A stretch of DNA of 64,000 nt, taken from positions 1-64,000 of the forward strand of contig NZ_AULZ01000002.1 in assembly GCF_000422545.1 (NCBI RefSeq), written 5' to 3'. The notes beneath the pieces were generated by a model. That model was given only the letters and a program-made list of their open reading frames with translations. It was not told the DNA's origin and did not search any database. Positions 6,994 through 11,799 of the stretch are shown here, in pieces. Made by a program: the position numbers and the translations under genes. This stretch comes from Desulfocurvibacter africanus subsp. africanus DSM 2603 (GTDB taxonomy: Bacteria > Desulfobacterota > Desulfovibrionia > Desulfovibrionales > Desulfovibrionaceae). Every line of letters starts with the position of its first letter. The stretch's first letter is position 1.

Positions 6994-8169
6994 ATGTTCA
7001 CACTCGCCCGCGAAAGCTCCATACTTGTCTCTTGCCCCAAGGGCATGGCCCCCTACGTCGCCCTGGAGATGGGCGAGCTTGGCTATGAAACGCAGGAGCT
7101 GGAGGCAGGGGTGCGCACCACGGGCACGCTTCACGACTGCATGCGCCTGAATCTGCATCTGCGTTGCGGCCACCGCGTTCATTACCGCCTCAAGCGCTTC
7201 GGGGCCTTGCATCCGGACATGGTCTACCGCGAGGTCAACTCCATCCCCTGGGAGGAGATCTTCGCGGCTGACGGCTACCTGAGCGTGCACTCGTCGGTCG
7301 TGCACCCCACCATCAGCGACACCCGTTTTCCCAACCTGCGCATCAAGGACGCAGTGGTGGACCGTTTCTCGCAAAAGACGGGAAGCCGGCCCGACTCCGG
7401 CCCTGACGAGGGCAAAGGGGTCTGCCTGTTTCTGCACTGGCGCGAAAAGAAGGCCGAGTTGTTCCTGGACACCACGGGCATTCCGTTGCCCAAGCGCGGC
7501 TACAGGCTCAATCCTTTCCGCGCGCCCATGCAGGAGACTCTGGCCGCGTCGGTGATCCGGGCGACCTTCTGGGACCCGGCCGACAACTTCGTGAACCCCA
7601 TGTGCGGCAGCGGCACGCTGGCCATCGAGGCCGCGCTCATGGCCCGCAACATCGCGCCCGGCCTGCTGCGCGAATCCTTCGCTTTCATGCACCTTTCAGA
7701 GTTCGACGCCTCCGCGTGGCAGCAGATGCGCACCGAGGCCGAAGCCGCCATCCTGCCTCGGCCCAAGGGACGCATCATCGCCTCGGATATCGATCCGCAG
7801 GCAGTGGACGCGGCCCGTGACAATGCCCGTCAGGCCGGGGTGGAGGAGAACATTGAATTCACGGTTTGCGACTTCCGTCAGACAACGGTGCCGGAAGGCA
7901 AGGGCGCGGTGCTCGTGAACCCGGAGTATGGCGAGCGACTGGGTGAAGCGGACGAACTCGGCGAAACCTACCAGGCTGTGGGCGACTTCCTGAAGCAGCG
8001 CTGCGCCGGTTACCGGGCAGGCATATTCACGTGCAATCTCGCCTTGGCCAAGCGCATCGGCCTGCGCGCCGAGCGCAAGGCGCCATTCTTCAGCGCCAAG
8101 TTCTCCTGCACGCTGTTCGTGTACAACATGTGGGAGGGAGCGGCGGCGAAGCGCGGAGCATCGGCGTAG
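6994..8169 (+). CDS. RlmL-like THUMP/UPF0020 RNA N2-guanine methyltransferase
   Basis: A 391-residue class I SAM-dependent RNA methyltransferase. An N-terminal THUMP-type region (about 1-165) is followed by a UPF0020 methylase with motif I NPMCGSGTLAIEAA (about 201) and SDIDPQAVDAAR. This resembles the RlmL-K/L family, which modifies 23S rRNA guanines at N2. The catalytic motif IV, usually NPPYGERL, reads NPEYGERL here (about residue 309), an unusual Pro-to-Glu change. It is divergent from the helicase gene. A long antisense frame here is a shadow. Confidence 0.82.
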   Translation: MFTLARESSILVSCPKGMAPYVALEMGELGYETQELEAGVRTTGTLHDCMRLNLHLRCGHRVHYRLKRFGALHPDMVYREVNSIPWEEIFAADGYLSVHSSVVHPTISDTRFPNLRIKDAVVDRFSQKTGSRPDSGPDEGKGVCLFLHWREKKAELFLDTTGIPLPKRGYRLNPFRAPMQETLAASVIRATFWDPADNFVNPMCGSGTLAIEAALMARNIAPGLLRESFAFMHLSEFDASAWQQMRTEAEAAILPRPKGRIIASDIDPQAVDAARDNARQAGVEENIEFTVCDFRQTTVPEGKGAVLVNPEYGERLGEADELGETYQAVGDFLKQRCAGYRAGIFTCNLALAKRIGLRAERKAPFFSAKFSCTLFVYNMWEGAAAKRGASA

Positions 8170-8467
8170 TTCCTCCTCCGCCTTCGCAACGATCCGGGCA
8201 GCTTCCACGCAACATGACGGCACGTCCTGTAGTCTGCAGGCCGTGCTCGTGTTTGCGTGTGGATAAAACCCGACGGCGTTGTCTAGTCATCAGCTACGTG
8301 ATGATGCGACTGCAAGGGCGGCCTTGAATGTGTTTTTCTTTCAACGTGTTGGGCTGGCGTTGATTTCCTTGGAGGCTTGGACTAGAGCCTGATGTATCCA
8401 GAATGGCTTCAACCTTGCGTTGTTTCGGCTTTCGCAACAGCCGCACGCGTCACCCCCGAGGTTTTCC
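8170..8467. other. Intergenic gap
   Basis: 298 bases between the methyltransferase gene and the chemoreceptor gene. No convincing gene, terminator or repeat was seen. An open frame runs through its end but precedes the chosen chemoreceptor start. Confidence 0.5.
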
Positions 8468-10303
8468 ATGCTCATGTCCCTGGCCGCTATACTGGCCACG
8501 GCCTTCGTCGTGTTCTCCGGCTTGTTTGTGCTTATGCTCGCAGTCGTGGGCGATTCTTTCGGCATGTCTGCCGTTTCCGGCCTCATGGCCGCGGCCGTGG
8601 CGCTGCTCGTGGTTTGGGTTCTATTGCGCCGGGCGCTGGACGCCTCGTCAAGCCTGCTTCTGAGCCATGTGCGTGATCCGGGCAAGGCCTCAATTCCTCA
8701 TGGAGCTGTGCTGGAAGAGCTGTTCGGGCTCTCGGCCACCCTTGAGTCAGTGGCCAAGACCCATCGCGAGCGCGTGGCCGCGCTGAGCAAGGCCAAGGAC
8801 GAGGCCGAGTCGCGCGCCGCTGGCCTGGAAGCCGCCGTGGCCAAGTCCAGCAACGTCTGCACCGAGGCGGAGAAGCGCACCGCGAGCCTTGAGGGCACGG
8901 CCCTCAAGGCTTTTGAGATCGCCGAGAACCTGTCCTACTCGGCCGCGACGCTCAACTCCCAGGCGGACCAGGTGGCCGAGGCCATGGTCGTGCAGAAGGA
9001 CCGCGTGGCCGAGACGGCCACGGCCATGGAGGAGATGAACGCCACGGTCCTGGAGGTGGCCCGCAGCGCGGAGCGGGCGGCTAGCAGCGCCGAGCGCTCG
9101 CGGGAGAAAGCCGGTCAGGGCTCGGGCATCGTGGGCAGGGCCGTGCAGGCCATCGATCGCGTGGAAGTCATGAACAAGGAACTGGAAACGGCCATGAGCC
9201 GCCTGGGCGAGCAGGCCGGCGGCATCGGCGAGATCATGAACATGATCACCGAGATCGCGGACCAGACCAACCTGCTGGCTCTCAACGCGGCCATCGAGGC
9301 GGCCAGGGCCGGCGATGCGGGAAGAGGCTTCGCGGTCGTGGCCGACGAAGTGCGCAAGCTGGCCGAAAAAACCATGAACGCAACGCGCGACGTGGAGGAG
9401 TCCATCAAGACCATCCAGCAGTCCGTGGCGCATAATCTCACGAGCATGTCGGCCGCCTCGGCGGCCGTGACCGAGGCGGCCGACCTGGCCCGGCGCTCGG
9501 GCGAGATGCTGGGGGAGATCGTGGCCCTGGTGGGTGACAACTCGGACCAGGTGCGTTCCATTGCTACCGCCGCCGAGGAACAGTCCGCGGCCAGCGAGGA
9601 GATCAACCGGGCCATAAGCGAGATCAACCGCCTGTCCGACGATACCACGAGCGAGGTCCAGGGCACGGTGCGCACCATTCAGGATATCCGCAAGCAATCG
9701 GAGCGGCTGCACCAGATATTCAAGGAAGTGCGCGGCGCGCAGAAGAATTCCCTGGCCGCTTCCGAAGGCCAGATGAAGGGCGTGTTGCCCAAGCTCATGG
9801 TCGACTACATAGGCAAGACCTACGGCGACGGCGTGCGTCGCAAGCTGCTGGAGGAGCTGGGCAATCCGGTGTTCATGATCCAGAACAGCTACCCCGACGC
9901 AGTCATGGGCCAGATGGCCGGTATCGTGTCCAGGCTCACGGGCGACACCAAACGCAAGATCCTCTTCGATCTGGGTTCCTACACGCCCGGCGAATTCGCC
10001 AAGCTCTACAAGAAGCACATTCACGGTTCGGAGCTGGGAAAGACGGATCTCAAGAAATTCCTTCTGCGCATGAACGAGGTGCACGAGGAAATCACCAAGG
10101 GCATGCCCGGAATCACGCCGCCGCGCTTCAGCTATGAGGACAAGGGCGACACCCTGGTCATGACCTACCATTCCAAGCGCGGCTTTTTCGACTATTTCGA
10201 AGGCATCTTGCATGGCGCGACCAAGATGTTTGGCCGCAAGGCGGAGATCAAGGTCAAATCCAAGGACGCGGCCACGGCTGTGGCGACCATCCGCTTTCAG
10301 TAG
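8468..10303 (+). CDS. Methyl-accepting chemotaxis protein with C-terminal H-NOX domain
   Basis: A 611-residue receptor. Two membrane helices (about 5-25 and 32-52) enclose almost no periplasmic loop. A coiled-coil signalling domain follows with the conserved hairpin tip ([18 protein letters not shown]). From about residue 436 to the end is a heme NO/O2-binding (H-NOX/HNOB) domain. It has the proximal heme His in [14 protein letters not shown] (His539, 104th residue of the domain), PPRFSYED, and the YxSxR propionate-binding motif in YHSKRG. Input is therefore cytoplasmic gas sensing by heme, with output to CheA/CheW. The ATG at 8468 has GAGG 8 bases upstream; a start 48 bases earlier is possible. 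Most known H-NOX chemoreceptors of clostridia carry the domain at the N-terminus. Confidence 0.9.
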
Positions 10304-10325
10304 AGCCGTTGATAAGCTTCCAAAG

Positions 10326-10362
10326 AAGGAGCGCTGCCGCCGAAGCGGAGCGCTCCTTTTTT
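10326..10362 (+). terminator. Rho-independent terminator after the MCP/H-NOX gene
   Basis: Stem AGGAGCGCT (10327-10335) pairs with AGCGCTCCT (10349-10357), followed by a run of T to 10362. It begins 22 bases after the stop codon. Confidence 0.85.
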
Positions 10363-10399
10363 GTTGCTGATGTCGGAGAGAGGTCGCCTTTACGGAATT

Positions 10400-10527
10400 T
10401 AGAGCATTTTGCTTTTGAAAATGCTCTGCAAGCCGTGCGTCGGCATGGCTTGCCGCCGCGTAGGCGTAGGCGCAATTCACTTGCGCCGCCAACGCCGGAG
10501 CGGGCATCTTAAAGGCAATTTGCTTTA
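10400..10527 (+). repeat. 128-bp TA-ended hairpin repeat, family A, copy 1
   Basis: First of five copies in the window (others start at 18940, 27979, 46911 and 49972). It begins TAGAGCA and ends TGCTTTA. Internal features shared by the copies are a 10-bp stem with 7-base loop (AGAGCATTTT / AAAATGCTCT), an 11-bp stem with 4-base loop (GCAAGCCATGC / GCATGGCTTGC, one mismatch in this copy) and GGCGCAA / TTGCGCC. It carries no coding capacity. It lies 38 bases after the terminator. Confidence 0.9.
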
Positions 10528-11238
10528 AAAGATCTTCACCAAAGAGAAACAGGAATCTGGCCATTCCAATTTCTTGGCGGATTGCTATGGTAAGCACAAT
10601 CCTCCAGGCAAGACACATTTTCGGACAGTTCTTATTACTTCGGTTTCAATTGGGATTTGGCGGCCCGATTTGACTTGGTTAGCTAGGGAGCCTTCGCATT
10701 CCCCCCTAGAAAAGGTAGGAGCCCGGCCAAGTTGAACCTGACCGGGCTAAGGTGAAGGGGCGAGTGAGGAGCTGACCGTCCTCGGAAGGATGTAGGAAAG
10801 GTAATCGCCGGCAGGCATCTGCCGGATGTTTCCTGCGGCGACGTGAGCACATACTAGCTGTTTAATTTTTTAGGGATATAGGAAGTGTTCTGATTTTTCT
10901 GTCAGGCTATGACCTATATGCTTGTAGGAATGTGACTGACAAGAATGGAATGTCTTATGGGCGCAGGAGCAAATTGGTGCATGTCCCTTGAAGGCCGGAG
11001 CGGCAAGAAACCTGACGTGAATCGTCGCGGATGGTCGCCCAGCGTGGGATCATGAACTCGGCAAGGGCATCCATGGGCATGCACGCAAGCATGTCTGCGC
11101 AGCCGGAGCGTTCATTGATGGAATGCGGCAGGCGCAAGCCACGGGTCGGCCAGACTTGCTGAGAGTCAGGCGCGTGCAGTGGCGTTCGACTGGGCGGCTT
11201 TAACAGATCTAGGACGATTCAAGGCGGCAATGTGTGTA
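10528..11238. other. Long intergenic region with stable hairpins
   Basis: About 710 bases with no convincing gene; a 60-codon minus-strand frame at 10955-11137 lacks family features. Two hairpins stand out: AGCCCGG/CCGGGCT (10720-10726 with 10742-10748) and CCGGCAG/CTGCCGG (10808-10814 with 10819-10825, loop GCAT). An AT-rich stretch follows near 10860-10890. A structured small RNA at about 10685-10860 is possible but unproven. Confidence 0.35.
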
Positions 11239-11799
11239 TTACGGCAACCCGAAGCGGCTACGTAGCCTCAGTTCCTGCTCCGTCAGCCAAGCTTGCGCGC
11301 CGGAAGAATCGGGTGCGGGAGCCCAGGGCGCGAAGTCCTTGTCATCCAGTGGATCGTAGGGTCCAGGCTTGATCTCGAAGAGCACCGAGCCTGGAGACAT
11401 GCTCACCAGCATATGCCAAACGCCGGGGCGGATGTCCACGGCAAAGGGGCCGTATTGCGCATCCAGCAGTATAAGATCCTCGTCGGCCGCGCGTCCCTGA
11501 TCGTCAAAGAAGGCGAAGCCGACCAGGCCGCGCAGGATGATGAAGCACTCGGCCTTGGGCGGGTGCAGGTGGCGGTGAGGCCGGATATAACTGCCCGGCT
11601 CAACGGCATTGAGCATGCGGTGCAGGGAGCTGGTGTCGCTGCCGTGAAACTGATGCATCTCGCGCAGCCGTGCGTTGGCCGCGGCGTCGGCGGCTTTGCG
11701 ATCCAGGAGCGCGGCGTCCACCACGGCGAAGCGTTCATGCGTGGAACGCGTGGCCAGAGCGGAAATGCGCCGGAGTTCGTTTGCGTCGCAATGTGGCAT
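11239..11799 (-). CDS. WbuC-family cupin metalloprotein
   Basis: A 186-residue cupin-fold protein. The metal-binding cupin motif 1 is seen in IRPHRHLHPPKAECFIILRG (two His, Glu) and motif 2 in PGVWHMLVSM. The pattern, including SSLHRMLNAVEPGSYI just before motif 1, is typical of WbuC proteins, often linked to surface polysaccharide loci, although no such genes adjoin here. The frame is open 141 bases further upstream; ATG 11799 was chosen because homology-like sequence starts there. No strong ribosome site is visible. Confidence 0.75.
   Translation of the reverse strand: MPHCDANELRRISALATRSTHERFAVVDAALLDRKAADAAANARLREMHQFHGSDTSSLHRMLNAVEPGSYIRPHRHLHPPKAECFIILRGLVGFAFFDDQGRAADEDLILLDAQYGPFAVDIRPGVWHMLVSMSPGSVLFEIKPGPYDPLDDKDFAPWAPAPDSSGAQAWLTEQELRLRSRFGLP

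Follow-up and report, generated by a model that had tools for sequence, protein, structure and literature searches.

The receptor gene at positions 8468..10303 lies on the forward strand of the window, by which we mean the whole 64,000-nucleotide stretch of DNA analyzed, and encodes a predicted MCP-H-NOX chemoreceptor of 611 residues; all of the features described below are on this strand unless stated otherwise. In the open reading frame survey a continuous frame spans the gene from a TTG at 8420 to 10303, and within it the ATG at 8468, which is preceded by GAGG at 8458-8461 with a gap of six bases, appears from the sequence to be the likelier start. Hydropathy predicts two membrane helices near the N-terminus, at residues 8-26 (8489..8545) and 35-53 (8570..8626), and because only the eight residues VGDSFGMS separate the two hydrophobic segments, there is almost no periplasmic loop, as the first-pass annotation had proposed. 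These are followed by an MCP signaling domain (PF00015) at residues 240-389 (9185..9634), whose hairpin scores 150.3 bits in Pfam against a cut-off of 34.6 and establishes membership of the MCP family. A linker at residues 423-435 (9734..9772; pLDDT below 50 at 418-426) connects the end of a long modeled helix at residue 422 to the H-NOX domain (PF07700), which profile, alignment and model alike place at residues 436-611 (9773..10303). GC3 is 0.85 in both parts of the receptor. The same Pfam search of the 611 residues gave no scoring PAS or periplasmic domain, and as relatives usually carry PAS_9 this supports the earlier suggestion that the H-NOX domain is probably the only sensor. A HAMP-like stretch behind the second membrane helix, suspected by eye, was dropped when no HAMP model scored. 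Antisense to the gene, a 623-residue open frame runs over 8747-10618, which we take to be a by-product of high GC3 coding.

The identity of the C-terminal 176 residues, beginning at Met436 (position 9773), was assessed by profile, residue and fold. Their match to the Pfam HNOB profile reaches 119.2 bits (E 2.1e-34) against a cut-off of 25.5 bits, and extends over profile positions 1-163 of 163, corresponding to a full domain. In sequence, the closest PDB entry is Tt H-NOX (3nvr, E 1e-12). The hallmark residues named in the first-pass annotation could all be located: the predicted proximal heme ligand, His539 (10082..10084; His104 of the domain), aligns with His102 of Tt H-NOX, PPRF lies at residues 551-554 with a proline aligned to Tt position 115, and YHSKR at 567-571 (10166..10180) corresponds to the YxSxR motif, which we take to be the heme propionate motif. 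The proximal histidine, Pro115 and YxSxR are thus all present, and the domain contains no cysteine. An AlphaFold2 model of the domain, built from the window domain and 43 relatives, has a mean pLDDT of 90.2 and adopts the H-NOX fold, with Tt H-NOX 3sj5_A as its top structure match in Foldseek (E 2.7e-12) and close VIA-align superpositions on Nostoc H-NOX 3tfd_B (Z 23.2, rmsd 1.7, 173 residues aligned) and Tt H-NOX 4it2_A (Z 22.2, 171 residues). A five-residue insertion near domain residue 86 falls in the part of the model with the lowest confidence (block mean pLDDT 55); none of the 16 other alignment rows has it in full, one locus (L034) keeping a single residue of it and the remaining rows none. 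Given that HNOB matches nowhere else in the genome (4.4 Mb), that the E-value to 3nvr is 1e-12 and that the model fits solved structures, the match is not a chance one. Judged by sequence and predicted fold, the chemoreceptor ends in a complete H-NOX domain, encoded by 9773-10303, much as had been read from the letters, and this domain would be expected to bind heme.

The AlphaFold2 model of the full-length receptor has a mean pLDDT of 70.6 and consists of one long helical element at residues 127-422, a poorly defined linker and a confident H-NOX domain, with pLDDT below 50 over residues 16-132. Beta strands drawn at residues 88-126 have a block-mean pLDDT of 33-40, and were discounted as an echo of the PAS domains of relatives in the alignment. 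Since the chain returns from the hairpin tip, the model implies that the heme domain should sit at the membrane-proximal end of the receptor.

A profile search for HNOB gave matches in 18 of 59 genomes when the own genome and its relatives were searched, and in 106 of the 348 genomes of the order, at 107 places (the own genome counted in both cases). Frames of at least 600 residues hold 97 of these places and shorter frames the other ten, among which one (L083) is stand-alone and two (L033 in G026, L035 in G057) are cut short. A long frame does not by itself show domain order. This was read directly in 15 relatives, each of which has HNOB as well as MCPsignal, and in 39 of 44 loci. The 44 loci were retrieved from genome contigs with an alignment-based query, a single-sequence scan of the same contigs having given no match; one of the two patterns in the 44-locus query includes the Tyr motif and so introduces a bias, of which the HMM searches are free. 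In a phylum-wide sample HNOB occurs in 12 of 395 genomes, counting our own, with five others from the same family in frames of 717-734 residues and six from other families in frames of 186-246 residues. From these sequence comparisons the C-terminal H-NOX arrangement looks like a trait of the window's order, and among the HNOB-bearing genomes of that order it is the usual form. The named relatives that bear the receptor are mostly Desulfovibrio-like, in keeping with the Desulfovibrio-type organism that had been suggested.

The receptors of the order are also uniform in their geometry. Hairpin and H-NOX are 155-157 residues apart in 39 of the 44 loci, the hairpin being unreadable in the other five, and 155 in the window; a second count, in which the domain starts one to two residues later, gives 156 for the window and from 157 to 161 for six relatives, among them G002 and G282, the genes of loci L077 and L078. 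The H-NOX domain of the window is 38-54% identical to those of relatives in the order. In two scans, of 15 and 24 relatives, 12 and 22 respectively match PAS_9, and the window protein does so in neither; another receptor without PAS is found in G115 (L081). A further variant at 2810-5512 of L084 (G296) is a C-terminal H-NOX receptor of 901 residues with a large N-terminal region and HAMP in place of PAS. HNOB matches G296 at another place too, in a frame of 723 residues, so that one genome can hold two. The stand-alone H-NOX of L083 (4303-4968, 174.7 bits) lacks the distal Tyr and belongs to a genome of the window's family. A tblastn search of plasmids returned eight distant records, seven from Vibrio and one from Acetoanaerobium, the last of which serves below as the clostridial contrast.

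Trp9, Asn74 and Tyr140 make up the distal network of Tt H-NOX. By alignment the window domain keeps the tyrosine, as Tyr576 (10193..10195), which is the sequence marker of the O2-binding subclass of H-NOX; Trp9 is replaced by Met and Asn74 by Thr, such that two of the three distal residues differ and, on this pattern of residues, the affinity for O2 may be lower than in Tt H-NOX. Alignment to Tt H-NOX shows the distal Tyr in 16 of 17 relatives and in 43 of 44 loci, two overlapping sets in each of which the lone exception is truncated before the Tyr column. It is missing from all seven stand-alone H-NOX controls, of which six belong to other families within the phylum and one (L083) to the same family, while the clostridial MCP fusion L080, with its H-NOX at the N-terminus, does have it. 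The portions available of three papers describe the distal Tyr as required for or stabilizing O2 binding in H-NOX, and H-NOX proteins with this residue from strict or obligate anaerobes as MCP-fused (PMC8738867, PMC12329717, PMC9814294). Because the tyrosine is present in the window and in all readable MCP-fused relatives, and absent from the stand-alone proteins, and because of this literature, oxygen appears likelier than NO as the ligand. Of the NO or O2 taxis put forward in the first-pass annotation, the evidence therefore favors the O2 half over the NO half, with O2 the presumed ligand and taxis the presumed output. H-NOX domains nevertheless bind NO as a rule, and the Met and Thr substitutions could weaken O2 binding, so that one might picture a domain that shuts out O2 in vivo and reports NO produced by neighboring denitrifiers or by nitrite reduction. 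Ct H-NOX, according to the available part of one study, binds NO, CO and O2 (PMC9814294). The distribution of the distal Tyr between MCP-fused and stand-alone proteins, and its association with O2 binding in the partly available literature, nonetheless make an NO sensor unlikely here. A signal arising from oxidation or loss of the heme, as opposed to gas binding, has precedents in Vibrio cholerae H-NOX, described in the accessible part of one report as oxidatively activated in its heme-free form through Cys residues (PMC7108781), and in the oxidative activation that an extract of another ascribes to Cc H-NOX (PMC12329717). The cysteine-free window domain makes a switch of the Vc H-NOX type impossible, and the residues of the heme pocket are conserved among the loci; we consider such a redox or heme-availability sensor quite improbable.

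In its own genome the receptor stands alone, without adjoining che genes, and directly 3' of it lies a predicted intrinsic terminator (10321..10363; hairpin of -32 kcal/mol, z -6.83, with a T run). The promoter and terminator scan missed this element because the loop between its perfect arms exceeds the limit of 8, and folding revealed the hairpin. No sigma-70-like promoter was found in 8160-10420, and no Rfam family reached its gathering score in 8000-11400. From the terminator up to 10618 no frame other than the antisense one is running, and an imperfect 19-nt inverted repeat is located at 10392-10436; the roughly 600 bases at 10619-11238 hold neither an ORF of 80 residues nor a known RNA family. 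The four window neighbors compared (a DEAD helicase, an RlmL-like methyltransferase, a DUF6016/cupin-like protein and a MarR-like protein) lie beside the receptor in none of the 44 loci.

A CheA-like gene follows the receptor on the same strand in 18 of the 44 loci, either 28-146 bp behind it (11 loci) or with a degenerate MCP-like gene and CheY in between (seven loci: L037, L038, L054, L057, L058, L061 and L075, in which the next gene is a degenerate MCP-like one of about 600-670 residues). CheB occurs in nine of the 44. The CheAs of these 18 loci were named by BLASTP to the CheA of contig C7 of the own genome, those of L052 and L062 being truncated where the contig or locus stops, and L076 is the single locus in which CheA and CheB were checked, and confirmed, by Pfam. 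Each of the 18 gives a better score with the C7 CheA than with the C10 CheA of the same genome, although the 44 loci are mutually related and the 18 linkages are not independent events. Downstream sequence of at least 3 kb was available in 39 of the 44 loci; as no CheA is seen close by in 26 loci (23 with 3 kb or more of downstream sequence, three with less), the linkage is not universal. The own genome, which has 34 MCPsignal matches (some in one frame), two CheA dimerization-domain matches and five Flagellin_N matches, keeps a che cluster on C7 (L087, 5678-12736) comprising a degenerate MCP, STAS, a CheY-like receiver, CheA, CheR and CheB, all confirmed by Pfam; the degenerate MCP-like protein at its head has 621 residues and an MCPsignal score of 70.5 bits. 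It matches the arrangement of the seven loci above, where the H-NOX receptor precedes a cluster of this kind. Separation from this cluster, a terminator of its own and the lack of a scoring PAS might suggest that the window receptor is a decayed orphan, no longer signaling since it lost its PAS and its place in a che operon. Yet the 611-residue frame is intact, with its ribosome-binding site, the tested motifs and equal GC3 in both parts, the receptor of G115 is likewise intact without PAS, and the majority of the loci share the lack of a nearby CheA. Decay is consequently very improbable.

Our preferred reading, to which we assign a probability of roughly 0.7, is that of a membrane-anchored receptor in which a cytoplasmic C-terminal H-NOX domain, the sole recognizable sensor, passes an O2 signal to CheA. 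In this model, O2 diffusing into the cell would bind a ferrous heme that has His539 as its ligand, and Tyr576 would donate a hydrogen bond to the bound O2. The resulting shift in the H-NOX fold might then act on the C-terminal helix of the hairpin, pulling on or repacking its last part, and this change at the base of the receptor, close to the membrane, would alter CheA activity. The route of coupling between H-NOX and the MCP helix is a guess, because the linker is of low confidence in the model. CheA would in turn set the swimming response, avoidance of harmful O2 being the most plausible behavior, although we infer the ligand, the direction of the signal and the behavior alike. The kinase fed by the receptor is probably the CheA encoded on C7. 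A more speculative extension, which we hold only tentatively and at somewhat less than even odds, is that these receptors serve a dedicated O2 pathway of the Desulfovibrionales with its own CheA lineage (18/44 loci), together with CheB (9/44) and CheY plus a second, degenerate MCP-like protein (7/44), the window's genome keeping this cluster, with STAS and CheR, on C7 and apart from the PAS-less receptor, and that the heme domain signals through the membrane-proximal C-terminal helix, not through HAMP or the membrane helices.

The architecture is known in kind, and being widespread in the order it is not novel; what may be new is the tie between the receptor type and one CheA lineage. Such a connection of a gas-sensor receptor to one particular lineage of CheA among sulfate reducers would bear on Desulfovibrio vulgaris, for which the available part of one paper states that the conditions for the function of CheA1 and CheA2 await exploration (PMC3944678). 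If the link is true, O2 behavior that runs by way of an H-NOX receptor and a dedicated CheA could be tested directly. The window domain itself would be a further O2-type H-NOX from nature whose distal pocket is altered. No statement on a C-terminal H-NOX attached to a chemoreceptor was found in the literature searched, mostly papers available without subscription and in part, nor is there anything on this arrangement in the accessible portions of PMC1592074, PMC10383989, PMC8396549 and PMC8846402.

Comparison with described receptors places the window protein among several related designs. It resembles the Tar4H type (Tt H-NOX; 1u4h, 3nvr) in combining H-NOX and MCP in one membrane protein, in fold and in the distal Tyr, and differs in the Met and Thr found at the positions of Trp9 and Asn74 in Tt. 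Tar4H is the name for the H-NOX receptors of clostridia and Thermoanaerobacter. In these the H-NOX is N-terminal, ahead of the membrane helices, as reflected in the numbering of the Tt H-NOX PDB chains from residue 1 and in the clostridial example from Acetoanaerobium (L080; HNOB 8-165, MCPsignal 403-555), whereas in the window receptor it forms residues 436-611 of 611, behind the MCP domain. The reversed domain order relative to the clostridial type that the first-pass annotation had pointed out is therefore real, as judged against this one clostridial example, yet it is widespread in the receptor's own order. DcrH shares with the window receptor the layout of an MCP of a sulfate reducer with a C-terminal sensor, but its sensor is a di-iron hemerythrin of unrelated fold and it has both HAMP and a periplasmic region, whereas the C-terminal domain here is HNOB. 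The parts available of two papers describe DcrH as a Desulfovibrio vulgaris MCP whose C-terminal cytoplasmic domain binds O2, with a proposed role in negative aerotaxis (PMC9388753, PMC13401364). With the TM-TM-PAS-MCP-H-NOX receptors of the Desulfovibrionales, the window protein shares domain order, H-NOX subfamily and near-constant spacing. HNOB-MCP fusions in Desulfovibrio were reportedly noted by Iyer et al. in 2003, and the C-terminal H-NOX of a Desulfovibrio desulfuricans MCP, expressed as residues 728-899, is said to bind O2. Where the Desulfovibrionales receptors mostly carry PAS_9, the window protein has no scoring PAS.
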